Assembly: GCA_949295675.1 (NCBI GenBank) | Contig: CASFMA010000031.1 | Coordinates: 1-36,572 of the forward strand | Source: an uncultured Spirochaetales bacterium | GTDB lineage: Bacteria > Spirochaetota > Spirochaetia > Sphaerochaetales > Sphaerochaetaceae | DNA length: 36,572 bases | Reading direction: 5' to 3' | Shown: positions 1 through 8,775 of the stretch, piece after piece | How positions within the stretch are numbered: position 1 is the stretch's first letter | Layout: every line of letters starts with the position of its first letter | Made by a program: the position numbers and the translations under genes | Notes under the pieces: generated by a model | Databases searched by the model: none | Told to the model about the DNA's origin: nothing | What the model saw: only the letters and a program-made list of their open reading frames with translations

Positions 1-191
1 CCGATGCTGTTCATGTTCGACAATGCAATGCTAGGCCCATGATGACTTACATCAACATCATCGAATATATGTGAATAACGATACCCTGCCCCGATGGATA
101 ATGTATTGAAACCACTATGCTCAGCTACAGCTGAGGCAGTCCCTGAGAACAAGATAAAAAGAAAACAAATCACTATGGCCTTTCTCATCAT
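1..191 (-). CDS. Secreted protein, N-terminal part only (runs off the window)
   Basis: The visible 63 residues begin MMRKAIVICF and form a typical Sec signal peptide: basic start, hydrophobic core IVICFLFILF, and a likely cleavage after the TASA or SAVA stretch. The mature start (about residues 24-63) has alternating polar and hydrophobic residues and a GAGYRY segment, which resembles the first strands of an outer-membrane beta-barrel, but too little is present to name a family. The ATG shares its A with the TGA stop of the upstream lipoprotein gene (TGATG), so the two are probably co-transcribed and translationally coupled. A second ATG follows immediately and could be the true start. If the upstream gene is switched off by its G-tract, expression of this gene may fall as well. 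The barrel reading is inference; the signal peptide is visible. Confidence 0.7.
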   Translation of the reverse strand, partial: MMRKAIVICFLFILFSGTASAVAEHSGFNTLSIGAGYRYSHIFDDVDVSHHGPSIALSNMNSI

Positions 192-2260
192 CACACACCT
201 TCCCTGATAACAAATGGTTCATTGCTGCTGCCATTATTCTTCACATATTCATATGCAAATATCCCATTCCATTCAGCTATCGCTCCATTAAGACCTTCAA
301 GAATGGAATCATCCCATTCAGTGACTTCTGTTGCTGTTGCATTACCACCTGCAGAAGGCGCGCTTCCACTCTGCCAGTAACACCCATTGAAAATCGGCAG
401 CGGATAGTTGGGCCAGTTATGCACACATGTGCCGATTCCTCCCACATAGGAAGTCCCTGTTATGCTTCCTGTGTTATAACAGGATATAAAAAACTCATCC
501 CGGATAATGGACTCTTCAGCAATTCCTATTATCCCGCCAACATAGGAGCTGCCGCTGATAGCACCTGCATTGTAGCTGGCAATGATTCCTCTACCCGTCA
601 CAGATTTTTCAGCTATAAAAGCGCCAGCAACCCCTCCTACATTTGCATTCCCTGAAACATCGCCAGCATTTGAAGAGGCCTCGACGAGTATTTTAACAGA
701 TTTAATTCCTCCAGCGATGCCACCAACAAAAGAAGAAGATGGAGCCGAAACAGATTCTTCATTCCGGCAGTTGACGATCAGGATAATATCTCCTTCTGGA
801 GTCTTCCTCCCAGCAGCATTACCAACAAGACCGCCGATATACTGTCCAGCTGCTTCACTCGAAACAGTACCATAGTTTGAACAGCTATCAATATCTGTCG
901 CATTTGCATATCCGATAATCCCTCCGATTTCAGATATGCCGCTGATTGATCCATGATTAGTACAAGATACAATCTTGTCAGATGAACTGCCGCTGTTGCC
1001 AGCTATACCGCCAATCTTATCAGAACCGCTTATCGAGCCATAATTTGAAGATGATGTGACTTCAGCTCCCTCAAGAAAACCTGCAATACCGCCTGCTATT
1101 GAAGATGTTGAAACCTCTCCATCATTCCGGCATTCTTCAACTTTAGCACCTGATTCTACCCGGCCTGCAATACCTCCTGCATAGTTATTTGTACCCTTTA
1201 TGCTGCCAGATACGGAACACCCGTTGATCTTACCGCCATACAGAGCCCCTGCAATTCCGCCTACATAATCTCCACCAACTATGGAAACATCAGAAAGATG
1301 CAGATCATGAACAGAACCGTAGCAGTATGAAATGAATCCGACAGCATCTCCATCAGGGGCGTTTATGACCAGATTGGCTATCGAATGATCCCTTCCATCG
1401 AATTTGCCGTAAAGCTCAACAGGCACCCAGTTGCTCACCAGCGCTATATCCTTGCCAAGGATGCAGTTACCTCCCTGCATTGCCCAGGCGCTCAACCCTT
1501 CTTCGCTATAAACAATATAGGTCCCAGCCTCTTTCATCAGATAGTCAAGCTCTATGACATCTGATTCTGATTGGCCTGAAAAGCCTTTGGCTCTCAGGAT
1601 CTCATCACCTTCCGCATCCGAAAGATCTATGCTCCCCTCATATTTTTCAGAGGCCCTCGTCGGATCAGTGCCGTCAAGCGTATAGTAGATTTCAAGATTG
1701 CTTATCTCTTCTTCAGCTTCTATTGTTATAAGTTCCGGATTTCCGGCCGTGGTATCAAAGGAAAGGGTTATGGTCACAGGCGCCTCAGGAGGTTCAGGAG
1801 CTTCATCTTTCCTGATATTGATGCTGAGGATCCCGATAACAGCGCCATCACTCCTTACGATCACATCAACGTTCTGCTCTGTGCTTGGTATGTGGTTGAA
1901 TGTGTATGTATCACCATCCTTCGAAACATAAAATCCTGCAGACGCTTGGGCTCTCAGCAATTCCTCATCATTGCACATAAATGAGATATCAAAGCCAGCT
2001 GCCGATGTATTGTCATCTGTCCTCAGGATATCCAATGAATATGATTCGCCTGTATCAAGGTCAATATCAAACACCGAAGGCTCACAACCTTCATAAAGCA
2101 CGGCTGTATTATCCTTGCTATCTGTGATGGTTACACCACACAGTCTCCAGATCGGGGTGAAGTCATGCTGGGAGCAGCCTGCGATGAGTATACATATAAG
2201 AGCTACCCCCCCCCCCCTGTGCAAAATTCCAGCTATCTTTTTCCTTACCCTGATATACAT
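191..2260 (-). CDS. GLUG-repeat surface lipoprotein with a chitobiase-type C-terminal-like domain
   Basis: This 689-residue protein starts with a lipoprotein signal peptide whose lipobox is ILIAGC, with Cys29 as the lipidated residue. Residues of roughly 165-240 match the CHB_HEX_C_1 style (a YYTLDGTDPT core), a small beta-sandwich common in surface proteins. From about residue 250 on there are about ten GLUG-type repeats with the signature GGIAG, GGIIG or GGLVG, each followed by a Cys/Asn-rich 'SCxNxGxISG' strand. Such repeats form beta-helical adhesin-like stalks in secreted bacterial proteins. The C-terminal CYWQSG segment is also typical of GLUG proteins. A Shine-Dalgarno GGAGAG lies nine to ten bases before the ATG. 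The striking oddity is a run of twelve G encoding Arg-Gly-Gly-Gly-Val at residues 15-19, inside the signal peptide. Ligand and host role are unknown. Confidence 0.85.
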   Translation of the reverse strand: MYIRVRKKIAGILHRGGGVALICILIAGCSQHDFTPIWRLCGVTITDSKDNTAVLYEGCEPSVFDIDLDTGESYSLDILRTDDNTSAAGFDISFMCNDEELLRAQASAGFYVSKDGDTYTFNHIPSTEQNVDVIVRSDGAVIGILSINIRKDEAPEPPEAPVTITLSFDTTAGNPELITIEAEEEISNLEIYYTLDGTDPTRASEKYEGSIDLSDAEGDEILRAKGFSGQSESDVIELDYLMKEAGTYIVYSEEGLSAWAMQGGNCILGKDIALVSNWVPVELYGKFDGRDHSIANLVINAPDGDAVGFISYCYGSVHDLHLSDVSIVGGDYVGGIAGALYGGKINGCSVSGSIKGTNNYAGGIAGRVESGAKVEECRNDGEVSTSSIAGGIAGFLEGAEVTSSSNYGSISGSDKIGGIAGNSGSSSDKIVSCTNHGSISGISEIGGIIGYANATDIDSCSNYGTVSSEAAGQYIGGLVGNAAGRKTPEGDIILIVNCRNEESVSAPSSSFVGGIAGGIKSVKILVEASSNAGDVSGNANVGGVAGAFIAEKSVTGRGIIASYNAGAISGSSYVGGIIGIAEESIIRDEFFISCYNTGSITGTSYVGGIGTCVHNWPNYPLPIFNGCYWQSGSAPSAGGNATATEVTEWDDSILEGLNGAIAEWNGIFAYEYVKNNGSSNEPFVIREGV
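2206..2217 (-). repeat. Homopolymeric G12 tract inside a signal peptide (candidate phase-variation switch)
   Basis: Twelve consecutive C on the plus strand are twelve G on the coding strand of the GLUG lipoprotein, at codons 15-19. Reading the following bases in each frame shows a switch. With 12 G the frame continues to the lipobox. With 11 or 14 G the next codon is TAG, an immediate stop. With 13 G a TGA follows about fourteen codons past the tract. Tracts of this length slip readily during replication; poly-G contingency tracts are established in Treponema pallidum, Campylobacter and Helicobacter. The slippage here is inferred. Confidence 0.85.
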
Positions 2261-2285
2261 ATCTGCGCACTCTCTCCAGAGAGAT

Positions 2286-2398: not shown

Positions 2399-3406
2399 TC
2401 AGTCCGCAGCATCAAGATAGGCCTGCCTTGCCATTGTCTCCTCATATGAGACCCCGAATACAGTCCTCCATGGGGATATATCGGCAGAAGCTCCTCTGAT
2501 GAAGGCGGTCACGTCAGCAATCGAGTCAAATGACAAGGTCTCCCTCACAATAAACGCACGGCTTCCCTTCACTCCTGCCTCACACCGCATCGCCGCGATA
2601 TGAGGAGGGCAGCCGCGCTTCGTGACAGCAGAGACCTTCGCTCCCGATGCAAGCACAAAGCGCCCGTCACGGATGAACACCGCGCCAGAGAACAAGCCTT
2701 CGGAATATATGAAAGTCTGGCGATCAAGGCGGAGGGCCGAACCCTCAGGCAACTGGCGGCATCGTGGTGCAGCGACATCATCCATAAGATCAACACCGAA
2801 CAGCTTCGGAAGCTCAGAATCAGGTATTATCCTATGGCCAGCCGTCTTTCCGGCCTTGCTCCAGATGCTATCGGCCTCACCTGCTATTATCCGGGAAAGG
2901 AAGAGATCAAGATCTATGCCCCGCAGCGAGAATATGAGTCCTGGATCCTCATCAAGCCTGTTTCCTATGCCATACAGGACAGAGGCTATATGCTTGCAGA
3001 GCGATGCCCAGTCAGGACACGAGCATGAGTACCTGATATCAGAGCGTCTGGGAAACAGCGTTCTCTGGAAGATATCCTCAAGGCCTGCCGGAAACCGTCC
3101 CTCCATAAGCTCCGAGACATTCTCGAATCGCGCGGAGCAGCATGATGCCAGTGCAAGATATGGCTCAACATCAAGAGGAGCTATCTGGACAGTCACGCGG
3201 TAGGGAATCGGACGTGAGCCTGAAACGAGGGCCCTTACGCTGCCGTAATGGTCAAGATCAAGGTCAAGTATATTGCCTCCTCGGCAATAGGAACGTCCTC
3301 TGGAAAGCCTGTTCGACCAGTCAGCAAAGCTTTCGATATCATCGCACCACTTCCTGCCCCACCATGTCCTGGCGATGGCGCGGCCATGAATCTCAACGGG
3401 TTTCAT
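2399..3406 (-). CDS. SWIM zinc-finger protein, partner of the SNF2 helicase
   Basis: The 335-residue product contains one SWIM zinc finger, CxCxnCxH, at residues 128-139 (Cys128, Cys130, Cys137, His139 in the stretch YSCSCPDWASLCKH). SWIM domains bind zinc and mediate DNA or protein contacts, and in bacteria they are commonly encoded directly beside SWI2/SNF2 ATPases, as here. The N-terminal 60 residues (WWGRKWCDDIE, then GRSYCRGG) match the usual start of this bacterial SWIM family. The start codon overlaps the stop of the SNF2 gene by four bases (ATGA), so the pair is translationally coupled. The substrate of the complex is not known. A role in DNA repair or chromatin-like remodelling is only an inference from the family. 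Confidence 0.85.
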   Translation of the reverse strand: MKPVEIHGRAIARTWWGRKWCDDIESFADWSNRLSRGRSYCRGGNILDLDLDHYGSVRALVSGSRPIPYRVTVQIAPLDVEPYLALASCCSARFENVSELMEGRFPAGLEDIFQRTLFPRRSDIRYSCSCPDWASLCKHIASVLYGIGNRLDEDPGLIFSLRGIDLDLFLSRIIAGEADSIWSKAGKTAGHRIIPDSELPKLFGVDLMDDVAAPRCRQLPEGSALRLDRQTFIYSEGLFSGAVFIRDGRFVLASGAKVSAVTKRGCPPHIAAMRCEAGVKGSRAFIVRETLSFDSIADVTAFIRGASADISPWRTVFGVSYEETMARQAYLDAAD

Positions 3407-5952
3407 AGCATCTCTCCTGAGAAACGCATCGCGCTTATAAGCTCATCGGGAGAGAGCTTCGATATGATGCCCTCGCTGCTGTCCGATATGACGGAAGATG
3501 CAAGGATCCTCTTGTCATGGAGCATCTCATCTATCTTCTCTTCTATAGTGTCCGACGTCACGAACTTATAGACAGTGACGTTTTTCCTCTGCCCTATCCT
3601 GAAGGCCCTGTCAGTCGCCTGGTCCTCCACGGCAGGATTCCACCAGCGGTCGAAGTGGACAACTGTGGAGGCTGCTGTCAGATTGAGGCCAACGCCCGCA
3701 GCCTTCAGGGAAAGGACCATATAGGGTATCCCGCCTTGCTGGAAGGCCTCAACGTTCTCCGCCCTCATCCTGGCGCTGCTGCTGCCGCTTATCGTAAGCC
3801 CTCTCTTGCCGAATGCGGAGAAGAGAAGATCATCAAGCGCTCCGATGATCTGGGCAAACTGAGTGAAGACAAGCACCCGCTCCCTGTTCTCTGCAAGTGC
3901 CTCCGCGATAGACCGCAGCGCCTGGAACTTTCCGCTTCGCTTATCGCTGAAGTCATCATCTCCTGTGTACTGCGCTGGATGGTTGCAGATCTCCTTGAGC
4001 CGCAGCAGGGTGCGGAGTATCATGGCCTTGCCTTCAAACGCACCGGACGCTCCTGCGTATCCACGCTCAAGCCTGCCAACCTCATCCCTGTAGAGGACTA
4101 TCTGCTCCTTAGTCAGCGGCACCATGATATTGTTCTCAATCTTCTCGGGAAGGTCAGGGATTATCGATCTGTCTGTCTTGACCCTGCGGAGCATGAACGG
4201 GGCAATTGCCCTCCTAAGCTTCGCATATCTTCCGCTCTCATGGCTCTCTGCAAGCTTCCTGAATGAATCAGCTGTGCCCAGCAGGCCAGGATTGATGAAA
4301 TCAAAGAGCGAATACAGGTTCATGAGATTGTTCTCTATCGGAGTGCCTGTCATCGCTATTCCAAGCTTCTTGCCAAGAGCCTTTATATTCCTCGTCTGCC
4401 TGGTATTCATGTTCTTTATGGCCTGAGCCTCATCCAGTATGATGATATCCCAGAGCTTTGCGCGCACGCTTTCATTCCTGGCAGCCATCTGATAAGTAGC
4501 GAGAGTCAGGAAAGGGAAATCGGAACGGTCCTTGTCCTTGCCGTACAGCACAAGGTAATCAAGGGATGGGGCGAATCTCCTTATCTCATGCTCCCAGTTG
4601 GAAAGAAGGGAGAGAGGCACGATGAGAAGCACATTCCCTATCCCCTTCTCCTTCTCACGCAGCAGGAATGACAGCATCTCAACTGTCTTCCCCAGCCCCA
4701 TATCATCGGCAAGGCACGTGCCAAGGCCAATATCCGCCATGCTGCAAAGCCACTGGAACGCATCCTTCTGATACTCCCTCAGCACTCCTGCGAATCTCCC
4801 AGGCACGGAGTGTTCCTCTGAAAGGATGGATGAAAGCCAGGACGCAGATGGGAAGCGGAGCTCGGATCTTATCCCATCGATCTTCCTGATGCCGGCAGCT
4901 GCCTTGACAACATCGGACAGATCAGGCCTGCTTTCCTCCAGCCTCATGTAGTCCTCAAGCAGGGCTCTGAGCTTTTCATGGCTTATCTCTATCCAGTGGC
5001 CCCTGAAGAGGCACAGCCCTTCCCTTCGGGAAAGGAGGTTTTCCGCTTCCTCCCTTGTTATCCTGATTCCGTCATAGACCATATCAGGAACAATGCTCAG
5101 CACATCAGAGCGTGTGAAGTAGCTTTTCCTGCCTATGGAAACATAAAGCGCAGCTGGGCGCTCTTCACGCCACCAGGCAGGTACTCGGCATATCACGCCA
5201 TGGCGTTCATAGAGGCTGGTCTCCCTAAGGAAAACATATGCCTCCTCCTCTGTAAGCTTTATAGGATTGAAGATATCCCCGGAATCAACAAGAGACGATA
5301 TGAAGGAACTCTCTTCCGAGATAAGCTTGATGGACGAAACCAACGCTCCAAGCTTCTCCATGTCATTGTCATACTCGCGCCTTGCATATTTGAGTGGATA
5401 GTGCCTTACGCGCCCCTCCGCATCCATTGTCGTGTAAGTTGCCATGAAGGCAAAAGGAGCATCGTCCTCAGGATACTCGACCATATGGAAATACACCCGC
5501 GATGGAACTATCAGATCTTTCCTCAGCCTGCTGAAATAGAGATCTACAGTACCGTCAAATGACGATATCTCTCGTTCATACACCTCAAGCATGCGTGAGA
5601 ACTGCAGCCTCACCCACTCATCTGTGAGATATTCACGGCCGATCATATAGGGTGCGCTGTCTATAAGGCTTATGATATCAGAGTCATCATACACAACATC
5701 GACGCTCTCCCTCGCGATCTCCAGAGATGGTGTGCGGAGAAGAGCTGAGACAAACAGAGCAGAGAGCGAGGAAAGGAATGAAAGCGACGGGGTGTCCGCC
5801 TTATCCCCCTTCCTGAACGAGAGGCTGTAAAGGGCCTTGTACTTATCCTCTTCGAAGTCCTTCTTCATGGACAATGCAGCCTCTGTGAGGCAATCCTGAA
5901 GATAGTCCATGATGAAAGAATCCTCTGTAATGAGAAACGCAAGCCCTGCCAT
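3403..5952 (-). CDS. SNF2-family DEAD/DEAH helicase/translocase
   Basis: The 849-residue protein has all SNF2 ATPase motifs in order: motif I DDMGLGKT at 416-423, motif II DEAQ at 507-510, motif III TGTPIEN at 535-541, and in the helicase C lobe VFTQF near 695, then GVGLNLTAAS and the DQATDRAFRIGQ motif VI near 776-788. SNF2 proteins use ATP to translocate on double-stranded DNA or RNA-polymerase complexes. The first ~370 residues are the poorly conserved bacterial SNF2-associated region. It forms a two-gene operon with the SWIM protein through a 4-base overlap. No Shine-Dalgarno site precedes the ATG. Instead TAGACT stands exactly six bases before it, which would make the mRNA leaderless. 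A downstream ATG at codon 15 is possible but less likely. Confidence 0.93.
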   Translation of the reverse strand: MAGLAFLITEDSFIMDYLQDCLTEAALSMKKDFEEDKYKALYSLSFRKGDKADTPSLSFLSSLSALFVSALLRTPSLEIARESVDVVYDDSDIISLIDSAPYMIGREYLTDEWVRLQFSRMLEVYEREISSFDGTVDLYFSRLRKDLIVPSRVYFHMVEYPEDDAPFAFMATYTTMDAEGRVRHYPLKYARREYDNDMEKLGALVSSIKLISEESSFISSLVDSGDIFNPIKLTEEEAYVFLRETSLYERHGVICRVPAWWREERPAALYVSIGRKSYFTRSDVLSIVPDMVYDGIRITREEAENLLSRREGLCLFRGHWIEISHEKLRALLEDYMRLEESRPDLSDVVKAAAGIRKIDGIRSELRFPSASWLSSILSEEHSVPGRFAGVLREYQKDAFQWLCSMADIGLGTCLADDMGLGKTVEMLSFLLREKEKGIGNVLLIVPLSLLSNWEHEIRRFAPSLDYLVLYGKDKDRSDFPFLTLATYQMAARNESVRAKLWDIIILDEAQAIKNMNTRQTRNIKALGKKLGIAMTGTPIENNLMNLYSLFDFINPGLLGTADSFRKLAESHESGRYAKLRRAIAPFMLRRVKTDRSIIPDLPEKIENNIMVPLTKEQIVLYRDEVGRLERGYAGASGAFEGKAMILRTLLRLKEICNHPAQYTGDDDFSDKRSGKFQALRSIAEALAENRERVLVFTQFAQIIGALDDLLFSAFGKRGLTISGSSSARMRAENVEAFQQGGIPYMVLSLKAAGVGLNLTAASTVVHFDRWWNPAVEDQATDRAFRIGQRKNVTVYKFVTSDTIEEKIDEMLHDKRILASSVISDSSEGIISKLSPDELISAMRFSGEML

Positions 5953-5964: not shown

Positions 5965-6380
5965 CTACATGCAGCAGTCAGTATCATCATGTTTATTTGA
6001 AGCAAAATAATGAAATTCCGCATGAAAAGATTCAAATTCGATAGAGTTTTTTCAAATATCGGCACAAAAGAATTAAATTTCATGGAATTTATTGAAATAT
6101 TCAAAAAAAGAATCAAATTTACAATTGAAGTCTTTTTGAATCAAATAAATTATCAACATGAGAATCAATATGACTTCCACAGAATTGGTCAATCTTGTCT
6201 AAGAGAGAAAGGAACGCCTGCAAAGCTGTACGATACTCTCTCATGCTTCCCAAATCAGGATAAAGGCGGTACGGATAGATGAGAAGGAAAATCCGCTCAT
6301 CATGGCAGGGAGCATAAGGATGACTCGTCCGGACAAGCCAGGAAGCAGGTATCAGAAATACTATACCCCAAAGGAGTGAT
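5965..6380. other. AT-rich intergenic stretch without a recognisable gene
   Basis: About 415 bases separate the SNF2 start from the regulatory region of the first pspA. The first half is far more AT-rich than the rest of the window and holds three degenerate 40-base repeats (listed separately). An open frame of 90 codons (6010-6282, plus) begins in the repeat area, but it has no ribosome site, Phe/Lys/Ile-rich low-complexity content and no family I recognise. I do not call it. The second half (about 6180-6380) has normal composition and only tiny open frames. It may be a decayed gene or simple spacer. Confidence 0.5.
6025..6145. repeat. Three degenerate ~40-bp AT-rich direct repeats
   Basis: The 15-mer AAAAGAWTYAAATTY occurs at 6025, 6066 and 6106, i.e. 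at intervals of 41 and 40 bases. The sequence after each copy is partly conserved too (TTT..TTgAAATATy in the first two). An interval near four helical turns puts the A-tracts on the same face of the helix, which could bend the DNA. Function unknown. Confidence 0.55.
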
Positions 6381-6417
6381 TGGTATTTACCGCCATATTA
6401 TATGGTACATATTGCCA
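6381..6417 (+). promoter_or_regulatory. Tandem upstream activator sites for the PspF-like regulator (first pspA)
   Basis: Two 15-base imperfect inverted repeats, TGGTATTTACCGCCA (6381-6395) and TGGTACATATTGCCA (6403-6417), start 22 bases apart, about two helical turns. The first matches 11 of 15 bases of the element before the second pspA (8074-8088). They lie 33-69 bases upstream of the -24 box, a normal place for enhancer sites. Binding by the adjacent regulator is inferred. Confidence 0.5.
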
Positions 6418-6449
6418 ATATCACCTGAATGATATCCGTTTATGGCCTT

Positions 6450-6465
6450 TGGCATGGAAATTGCT
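6450..6465 (+). promoter_or_regulatory. Sigma-54 (-24/-12) promoter of the first pspA
   Basis: TGGCATGGAAATTGCT has the invariant GG and GC exactly ten bases apart and close to the TGGCAYR-N4-TTGCW consensus. The expected start is about 6476, giving a leader of only about twelve bases that begins with the CAGGAG ribosome site. Confidence 0.8.
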
Positions 6466-6487
6466 TCAAGGCAGTCAGGAGCAAACT

Positions 6488-7123
6488 ATGGGAATATTCA
6501 CGAAAATGAAGGATATCGTGGCATCTAACATAAACGCCGCGCTCGACAAGGCGGAAGATCCACGGAAGATGATTGACCTCTCGCTCAGGAAGCTCGAGAA
6601 GGCCTCCGCAGACATAAGGTCATCCATTGAGAGGAAAACAGCCGAGAAGAGAGACGCACAAGAGCGCATAGCTGAGGAGAAAGCCGCGCTTGAGCGCTGG
6701 ACAGAAAGGGCAAGGAAAGCCGCAGCATGCGGCAAGGATGAGCTTGCACGCGAAGCGATACGGGAAAAGAGGGAGATCGAAAGAAAGATAAAAGCTGACG
6801 AGTACACAGTCTCATCGCTGTCTTCGATAATACCGACGCTTGAAAGCACGCTGAGGAAGACAGAGGAGAAGCTTGAAGAACTTTCAGCAAAGGCCGAAGG
6901 ACTCAAGGCAAGGGCTGAGAGCGCGAGGATCAAGGAGAAGGCAGGGGAAAGCATGCGCGACTGGGAAAGGCGGATCGAGGAGATGGAAGCAAGGCTCGGC
7001 AGATGGGAGGACTCCTTAAGAAGCTCCCAGACCAGGGACCGTTTTGAGGATGAGGAAATAGAGAGCGAGCTTGAGAGACTCAGGAAGGAAGCCGGTCCCT
7101 CAGCTTCCGATAAAGACCTCTGA
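6488..7123 (+). CDS. pspA: PspA/IM30 family phage-shock protein (first copy)
   Basis: The 211-residue protein opens with the family hallmark MGIFTKMKDIV followed by NINAALDKAEDPRKMI, an amphipathic helix that binds stressed membranes, and continues as a long Lys/Glu-rich coiled coil (about residues 25-200). PspA/IM30/Vipp1 proteins are ESCRT-III-like and assemble into rods that protect or repair the inner membrane; enterobacterial PspA also inhibits the activator PspF. Length is close to E. coli PspA (222). I choose the ATG at 6488 because AGGAG stands seven bases upstream and the longer open frame adds an unrelated 36-residue head. A sigma-54 promoter lies immediately upstream. The 3' end overlaps the convergent regulator gene by 44 bases. 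Confidence 0.9.
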   Translation: MGIFTKMKDIVASNINAALDKAEDPRKMIDLSLRKLEKASADIRSSIERKTAEKRDAQERIAEEKAALERWTERARKAAACGKDELAREAIREKREIERKIKADEYTVSSLSSIIPTLESTLRKTEEKLEELSAKAEGLKARAESARIKEKAGESMRDWERRIEEMEARLGRWEDSLRSSQTRDRFEDEEIESELERLRKEAGPSASDKDL

Positions 7124-8054
7124 ACTGATCGTAAGTAAGGCTTAATAATTCAGCAGCCCTCCTTTGATTGCCTCCCGCATCATCGAGGGCCTTTTTCAGA
7201 TATTTCAAATCAATTTCTTCATGTATATAGGGATATCTTTCAAGATCAATCGTATTGGAAGGCTTTTCAGAGGGCTTTTCGAATGGATTCCTGAATGGCT
7301 CCGTCTCTATATCATCAATAAGGCCTCCCTCACATCTGTAGACAGCTCTCTCGACCGTATTCTTCAGCTCCCTTATATTCCCCGGCCATGAGTATGACAG
7401 CAGCTTCTTCTCCGCCCTGGGCGAAAAATACGGCACATCAGGATAGCCGCATTCCTCCGCCATGTTGGTTGCGAAATAGTTTGCAAGGAGCATTATATCA
7501 CCCGTACGGGCACGCAGCGGCGGAACGAATATGACCTCGAACGACAGCCTGTCCAGAAGATCCTCCTTGAACCTGCCCTCGCGCGCAAGCTCTGGCAGAT
7601 CCGCATTCGTCGCAGCGACTATCCTGACATCCGCATACCGCGTCTCAGACGATCCGATACGCTCGAATGTGCCATACTCAACCGTGCGCAGTATCTTCTC
7701 CTGCACCTCAAGCGGCACCAGCCCTATCTCATCAAGGAACAAAGTCCCTCCCTCAGCCTCTTCAAAGCGCCCCTTCCTCGCACTGACGGCACCTGTGAAC
7801 GCCCCCTTCTCATACCCGAACAGCTCAGCCTCGACCAATGTCGGAGGCAGCGATGCCAGGCTTACGGCGACAAGCGGGCCTTCCCATCTTCCTGAAAGGA
7901 AATGGAGGCGGCGAGCAGCAAGCTCCTTCCCCGTTCCCCTCTCCCCGACGAATATGACAGGACGGTCAACCTTGGCAGCCTGCGCCACGCGATGCTGGAA
8001 ATCAAGATAGATGCCGCACTCACCTATTCCTTCCCTGTAAAGTATCCTAGACAT
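7080..8054 (-). CDS. pspF: PspF-like sigma-54 enhancer-binding activator
   Basis: The 324-residue protein starts directly with the AAA+ sigma-54 activator domain: Walker A GERGTGKE at 37-44, the sigma-54-contacting GAFTGA loop at 84-89, Walker B LFLDEI at 105-110 and the SWPGNIRELKN motif. The C-terminus (about 285-324, GGNQRRAAELLSLTYDQFRGLY) is a Fis-type helix-turn-helix. There is no N-terminal sensory domain. That layout and length match E. coli PspF (325 residues), which is controlled by PspA binding rather than by phosphorylation. It sits between two pspA genes, each with a sigma-54 promoter, so they are its obvious targets. Its ATG is preceded by TGGTAAAAT and a six-base gap (leaderless), and one activator site overlaps the region upstream of that -10, which suggests autorepression. 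Confidence 0.88.
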   Translation of the reverse strand: MSRILYREGIGECGIYLDFQHRVAQAAKVDRPVIFVGERGTGKELAARRLHFLSGRWEGPLVAVSLASLPPTLVEAELFGYEKGAFTGAVSARKGRFEEAEGGTLFLDEIGLVPLEVQEKILRTVEYGTFERIGSSETRYADVRIVAATNADLPELAREGRFKEDLLDRLSFEVIFVPPLRARTGDIMLLANYFATNMAEECGYPDVPYFSPRAEKKLLSYSWPGNIRELKNTVERAVYRCEGGLIDDIETEPFRNPFEKPSEKPSNTIDLERYPYIHEEIDLKYLKKALDDAGGNQRRAAELLSLTYDQFRGLYRKLRDRLPS

Positions 8055-8060
8055 AGGCTT

Positions 8061-8069
8061 ATTTTACCA
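8061..8069 (-). promoter_or_regulatory. Extended -10 promoter of the PspF-like gene, leaderless arrangement
   Basis: TGGTAAAAT on the minus strand, then six bases (AAGCCT) and the ATG at 8054. It has the TGn extension but no clear -35. The same nine bases and the same gap precede the ROK gene at 33214. Confidence 0.5.
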
Positions 8070-8073
8070 TATC

Positions 8074-8088
8074 TGGCATTATTCGCCA
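8074..8088. promoter_or_regulatory. Activator site shared by the second pspA and the pspF-like gene
   Basis: TGGCATTATTCGCCA is an inverted repeat (TGGC/GCCA) matching 11 of 15 bases of the site at 6381. It lies 34 bases upstream of the -24 box of the second pspA and just upstream of the -10 of the pspF-like gene, so one protein could activate the first and repress the second. Confidence 0.5.
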
Positions 8089-8122
8089 TAATAGAATTCG
8101 AATATTCCACCCCATCGCCACT

Positions 8123-8138
8123 TGGCACTGTTCCTGCA
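8123..8138 (+). promoter_or_regulatory. Sigma-54 (-24/-12) promoter of the second pspA operon
   Basis: TGGCACTGTTCCTGCA keeps GG and GC ten bases apart; the -12 box is CTGCA instead of TTGCA. The predicted start, about 8149, falls on the first base of AAGGAG, giving a twelve-base leader. Confidence 0.75.
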
Positions 8139-8160
8139 TGTTATCGGTAAGGAGCTGATA

Positions 8161-8775
8161 ATGAATATATTTTCAAGATTCATTGATATAGTGAACGCGA
8201 ATATAAACGCGATGCTGGACAAGGCTGAGGATCCTGAGAAGATGCTTCGCCTGATGATCCAGGAGATGGAGGATACGGCAATAGAGCTGAAAAGCAGCTG
8301 TGCCTCTGACATGGCGGCCCAGCTGTCCTTCGAGAAAAGAGCTGAAGAGGCTGCTGCGGGCGAGAAGCGCTGGGAAGAGAGAGCCCGCCTTGCCGTGAGC
8401 AAGGGGAAGGATGATCTTGCCCGTGAGGCGATAGCCGAAAGAAGGGAGATGGAGAGGGAAAGGAAAAGATGCCTTGAAGCTGCGGAGAACCTCAAAGCAG
8501 AGATAGCGAAGGAAAAGGACGAGATCAGCAGGCTCGAGGAAAAGCTTGCAGACTCGAAGAAGAAGCTCAGGGCAATGGCAGAGAGAAACGAGAAGGCAAA
8601 AGCGGAAAGCAAGGCGAAGGAGAGCGAGAGAACGAGCAGGGAACGCCGCTTCGAGGAAATGGAGAGGAAGATAGAGAGAGCGGAAGGCTACCACTCTGCA
8701 GGAAGGGCTTTCGACGATGAGGAAATAGAGAGGGAGCTTGAGGCCCTGAAGAGAGAAGGCAATGGTCAGGACTAG
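8161..8775 (+). CDS. pspA: PspA/IM30 family phage-shock protein (second copy)
   Basis: The 204-residue protein starts MNIFSRFIDIVNANINAML and continues DKAEDPEKML, aligning with the N-terminal amphipathic helix of the first copy, then forms a Lys/Glu-rich coiled coil to the end. The two copies share the N-terminal helix and a C-terminal FDDEEIERELE-like tail (FEDEEIESELE in the first), so they are paralogues rather than fragments. The start at 8161 is chosen because AAGGAG stands six bases upstream and a sigma-54 promoter lies just before it. Its 3' end overlaps pspC by fourteen bases, so pspA2-pspC is one operon. Whether one copy inhibits the activator and the other serves the membrane cannot be told from sequence. 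Confidence 0.9.
   Translation: MNIFSRFIDIVNANINAMLDKAEDPEKMLRLMIQEMEDTAIELKSSCASDMAAQLSFEKRAEEAAAGEKRWEERARLAVSKGKDDLAREAIAERREMERERKRCLEAAENLKAEIAKEKDEISRLEEKLADSKKKLRAMAERNEKAKAESKAKESERTSRERRFEEMERKIERAEGYHSAGRAFDDEEIERELEALKREGNGQD

Follow-up and report, generated by a model that had tools for sequence, protein, structure and literature searches.

A tract of twelve G in the signal-peptide coding region of a spirochaete lipoprotein gene is read from its sequence as a contingency (phase-variation) switch, with a probability of about 0.88, and as one of a genus-level set of contingency loci. The phase-variable character suggested for this gene by the first-pass annotation is supported by tract lengths that differ among relatives and by the mixture of in-frame and out-of-frame states. 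The gene lies near one end of the window, the whole stretch of 36,572 nucleotides that was analysed, which is contig C31 of a genome of 1.77 Mb (130 contigs, 78% complete).

The lipoprotein gene (positions 191–2260, minus strand) is an open reading frame encoding 689 residues. It had been described as a GLUG-repeat protein, and indeed six Glug stretches are found, with a PF07581 score of 30.8 bits vs a cut-off of 20.5. The Pfam families matched are PF07581, PF13290 and PF13287; besides the Glug stretches, they give a CHB_HEX_C_1/Fn3_assoc domain, and all matches are above the Pfam cut-offs. An AlphaFold2 model from the single sequence has a mean pLDDT of 41.6 and carries no claim of an adhesin. 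The reading frame starts with MYIRVRKKIAGILHRGGGVALICILIAGCS, and a putative ribosome-binding site, GGAGAGAG (2270–2277, minus strand), was read upstream of the ATG at 2260. A promoter scan of positions 1–2600 gave four matches vs 4.9 expected, none of them upstream of the lipoprotein gene. A putative lipoprotein signal peptide, split by the tract, was read from the translation (residues 1–28, 2177–2260, minus strand). It is followed by a putative lipidated Cys29 (2174–2176, minus strand) in a lipobox, IAGC, recognized by eye.

The tract is a G12 homopolymer at exactly 2206–2217 of the minus strand (C12 on the plus strand). As annotated, it separates the basic from the hydrophobic part of the signal peptide, which reads MYIRVRKKIAGILHR-GGG-VALICILIAGC. 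It forms a long simple repeat in the 5′ part of the coding sequence, starting at base 44, and comprises the last two bases of Arg15, Gly16–18, and the first base of Val19. The tract is in frame in the assembly. The effects of slippage announced by the first-pass annotation were confirmed from the sequence: loss of one G places TAG directly behind the tract, and gain of one G makes TGA the 14th codon after it. With the frames thus read, the product is cut short early by any length change other than a multiple of three. The layout of a tpr-type promoter, with a tract between the −35 and −10 elements, is not that of the window tract, which sits inside the coding sequence.

The position of the tract exactly at the basic/hydrophobic junction, in the window gene and in several relatives, would suit a graded switch, in which steps of three G shift this boundary and tune export next to the switching of the frame. 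This additional function is unlikely, as the tract is found behind or inside the lipobox in L061, L072 and L126, so that a location at the junction is not required.

The window contains 566, 121 and 10 G or C runs of length 3, 4 and 5, respectively, none of length 6 to 11, and one of length 12. With a first-order Markov model, a run of 12 was reached in none of 300 windows and a run of 11 in one of them. The source genome has 65 G runs that are exactly 6 long and seven of at least 9, and no run of exactly 8. A model of independent bases predicts, by simple arithmetic, around 13 runs of at least 9 in this genome. The raw count of tracts was therefore rejected as a proof of excess, and the argument is based on the intermediate lengths missing from the spectrum and on the placement of the tracts. 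In the genus, a run of at least 9 G is present in all 48 genomes searched, and a run of exactly 8 in 42 of them.

A fixed length in all strains, which would have spoken for a static tract, is not what is observed among relatives: tracts of 9 and of 10 G, which keep the frame in some genes and not in others, share near-identical flanks. Taking lengths from the assembly consensus of different species, where homopolymer assembly errors are possible, one pair of the MEKIRRSIL family has G9 out of frame (G035) and G10 in frame (G003), and a second pair has G10 out of frame (G024) and G9 in frame (G010), both pairs with near-identical flanks; orthologues of another GLUG lipoprotein gene of the source genome, on contig C52, have G9 out of frame in G066 and G9 in frame in G028. 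In a hand-picked list of 21 lipoprotein tracts in or beside the signal peptide, with hand-picked start codons (those of L048, L064, L116 and L256 have no SD-like match), 9 are in frame (L014, L028, L041, L061 (=L110), L072, L077, L107, L126 and L256) and 12 are out of frame (L048, L015, L018, L038, L035, L064, L071, L117, L228, L229, L116 and L238). L115, whose tract is in frame from one possible start and out of frame from another, was excluded from this count, and coding tracts outside lipoprotein signal peptides (e.g. L132, L130, L225, L226, L059, L092 and L114) were not counted. For the window protein itself, 29 loci were fetched, corresponding to 26 distinct relatives as three genes were present twice. 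A run of at least 7 G is found near the start in 10 of the 26, and (AG)n in one; the set fetched includes three loci without visible start (L020, L022 and L034) and three from outside the genus (L026, L036 and L039).

(AG)8 or longer repeats are found in seven of the 48 genomes of the genus. Six of these seven loci were fetched, and in all six the repeat lies within a lipoprotein signal peptide, after a start codon and ahead of the hydrophobic part, in frame in two cases. As (AG)n encodes Arg-Glu and not Gly, it is the repeat that is kept at this place, not the glycines. A glycine run encoded by mixed codons had been named as an observation that would contradict the switch; none was seen in the signal peptides of the relatives examined, some of which carry (AG)n instead. 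It is very improbable, then, that a Gly-Gly-Gly sequence is fixed in the signal peptide and that the G run is an accident of codon usage: such a stable coding feature agrees with the in-frame assembly of the window gene, but not with 12 out-of-frame tracts followed by an open lipoprotein frame, nor with the repeat and codon observations above. What is kept appears to be slip-prone DNA rather than a peptide, (AG)n being the strongest sign of it. The occurrence of poly-G and AG at a single place in lipoprotein signal peptides argues for selection for switching there.

Sixty of 68 listed tracts from four genomes (G061, G062, G065 and G018) were fetched, and the commonest class among them was the promoter spacer. 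The sequence TTGAC is present 4–13 nt upstream of 34 of the 60 tracts, vs 0.9% at random places, and 52 are followed by TA. A search with the promoter pattern TTGACA-N-G(n)-TAGNNT yielded 123 matches in 28 of the 48 genomes; the reversed pattern, used as a control, yielded none. Uninterrupted tracts account for 113 of the 123 matches (G8, G9, G10, G11 and G12 in 17, 65, 23, 5 and 3 cases, respectively), and the same flanks were found with differing numbers of G. A similar pattern was matched in five of 61 genomes drawn from the whole family, two of these being among the 55 from outside the genus. Many of the genes behind the promoter tracts encode lipoproteins, judging by their N termini.

All these genomes are assemblies, mostly in many contigs, which could suggest that the apparent length differences are homopolymer assembly or sequencing artefacts. 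There is little to recommend this explanation, as it accounts neither for the placement of G runs in signal peptides and behind TTGAC nor for (AG)n in the same place. Pseudogenes decaying by the accumulation of frameshifts in G runs, an idea compatible with the many out-of-frame tracts, are hardly credible, since the reading frames behind the curated tracts run on for hundreds of codons without a stop, and the window gene itself is intact.

Two features of the promoter tracts were observed in passing. The textbook optimum for a promoter spacer is 17 bp. The spacers here peak at 19 bp, with 17 bp in only 3 of 113 and no 7-G tract found, and perhaps most promoter copies are in a low state. The G tract is broken by one A or T in 6 of the 123 matches, an interruption that may lock the switch.

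The genome from which the window originates has further tracts. On contig C52, the GLUG lipoprotein gene has G10 between MKRLKLNSIAHNALYR and FATILLLLFACS, at the same signal-peptide position as the window tract; it is out of frame as assembled, with 496 open codons behind. A Pfam search identified three GLUG genes in this genome, on C31, C52 and C106; the start of the last is lost at a contig end and its signal peptide is not readable. On C30, TTGACA-18-TAGTAT, with G9 directly before TAGTAT, is followed by a lipoprotein gene (MKRTLLAALGIVLMLFSFASCS). On C41, G9-TAATAT is found ahead of a lipoprotein gene together with a divergent G11; the two tracts (G000:C41:311-365) are 35 bp apart, between the lipoprotein gene and a small gene, and are possibly two switchable promoters facing apart. 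TTGACA-19-TAGCCT is present near the end of C5, and a G9 without a clear gene behind it on C4.

Genes of other types were also found with G tracts. In G018, a ResIII/type ISP restriction gene (G018:C27, L132) contains an out-of-frame G10, and a G9 lies ahead of a type I Methylase_S domain (G018:C4, L130), so that restriction systems carry tracts too. Tandem genes for Gp10_C baseplate-type proteins (G064:C59, L225 and L226) have a G9 near each start; neither tract is in frame with the SD-bearing start that was identified.

The TGATG by which the first-pass annotation proposed a coupling of the lipoprotein gene to the next gene is present: the stop codon of the lipoprotein gene overlaps the next minus-strand start at 193–189 (189–193, minus strand). 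The next gene (1–191, minus strand) has lost its 3′ part at the contig end, and around 63 codons remain on the contig, with a signal-peptide-like N terminus. From this arrangement, it is plausible that the downstream gene would switch together with the lipoprotein gene. Upstream of the lipoprotein gene are SWIM-like and SNF2 helicase genes (2399–5952). The nearest named match of the SNF2 protein is in the uncultured Spirochaetaceae assembly E19__bin224 (71% identity), and the SWIM-like gene is present in 7 of the 48 genomes of the genus. G066 and G028, the nearest two species that have this flanking gene, lack the lipoprotein gene behind it. In both, the spot is occupied by other genes, one of them vsr-like (by eye), which indicates that the lipoprotein gene pair was gained or lost here; consequently the exact window gene has no orthologue for a comparison of length. 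Farther away (6380–8775), a sigma54-activator-like gene is flanked by a pair of coiled-coil genes on the opposite strand, which resemble each other and look PspA-like by eye.

It is presumed that, in the living population, the tract gains or loses Gs by slipped-strand mispairing during replication. The full lipoprotein would be made whenever the length preserves the frame, and the assembled state would be ON. With other lengths, translation is predicted to end inside the signal peptide or else 14 codons past the tract, so that nothing would be exported and the protein would be lost in the off state. When translation is lost, the overlapping downstream gene would probably be expressed less as well, through broken coupling or polarity. 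As MutS1 is present in all 48 genomes (over the cut-off in 46), the rates of slippage may be modest. With G tracts placed in signal peptides or in the spacers of sigma70-like promoters, and often beside genes for surface lipoproteins, a mixed surface repertoire could arise within one population, and the benefit would be surface variation under pressure from immunity, phages or competitors. A contingency system of two layers in the genus is rather probable: poly-G promoter cassettes, and signal-peptide switches formed independently by poly-G and (AG)n, would shuffle many surface lipoproteins, and restriction subunits and phage-type baseplate proteins have G tracts too.

In the Neisseria opa genes and in CT-repeat outer-membrane genes of Helicobacter pylori, a repeat in the signal-peptide coding region turns translation on or off by the reading frame. 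The window repeat is likewise inside the signal-peptide coding region, but the repeats are pentamers or dinucleotides in those systems and mainly poly-G here, with (AG)n in some relatives. The poly-G phasomes of Neisseria and Campylobacter consist of many poly-G loci per genome, including surface genes (PMC5953494, PMC6321876). The same is found here, although those bacteria are from other phyla and, of the tracts fetched here, the largest class is that in promoter spacers. In Treponema pallidum, a published study reports that the length of promoter poly-G sets the expression of putative outer-membrane proteins (tpr/TP0126), with tprL in Escherichia coli being active with G8 and near background with G10 (PMC7864442). 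T. pallidum is also a spirochaete, and the sibling promoter tracts found here share the poly-G layout described there; in contrast, the window tract is in a coding region, not in a promoter, and the genus is different. The type of switch is well known from other bacteria (Neisseria, T. pallidum, Campylobacter). Among the open-access papers listed for such switches in gut or uncultured spirochaetes, none was recognisable as dealing with this genus.

As assemblies record one state per gene, annotation will call many such surface genes broken. The loci named here have tract lengths that are readable directly in existing metagenomes. Simple-repeat phase variation, which has mostly been studied in a few pathogens, is extended here to a species-rich genus of uncultured spirochaetes, represented by 48 genomes.
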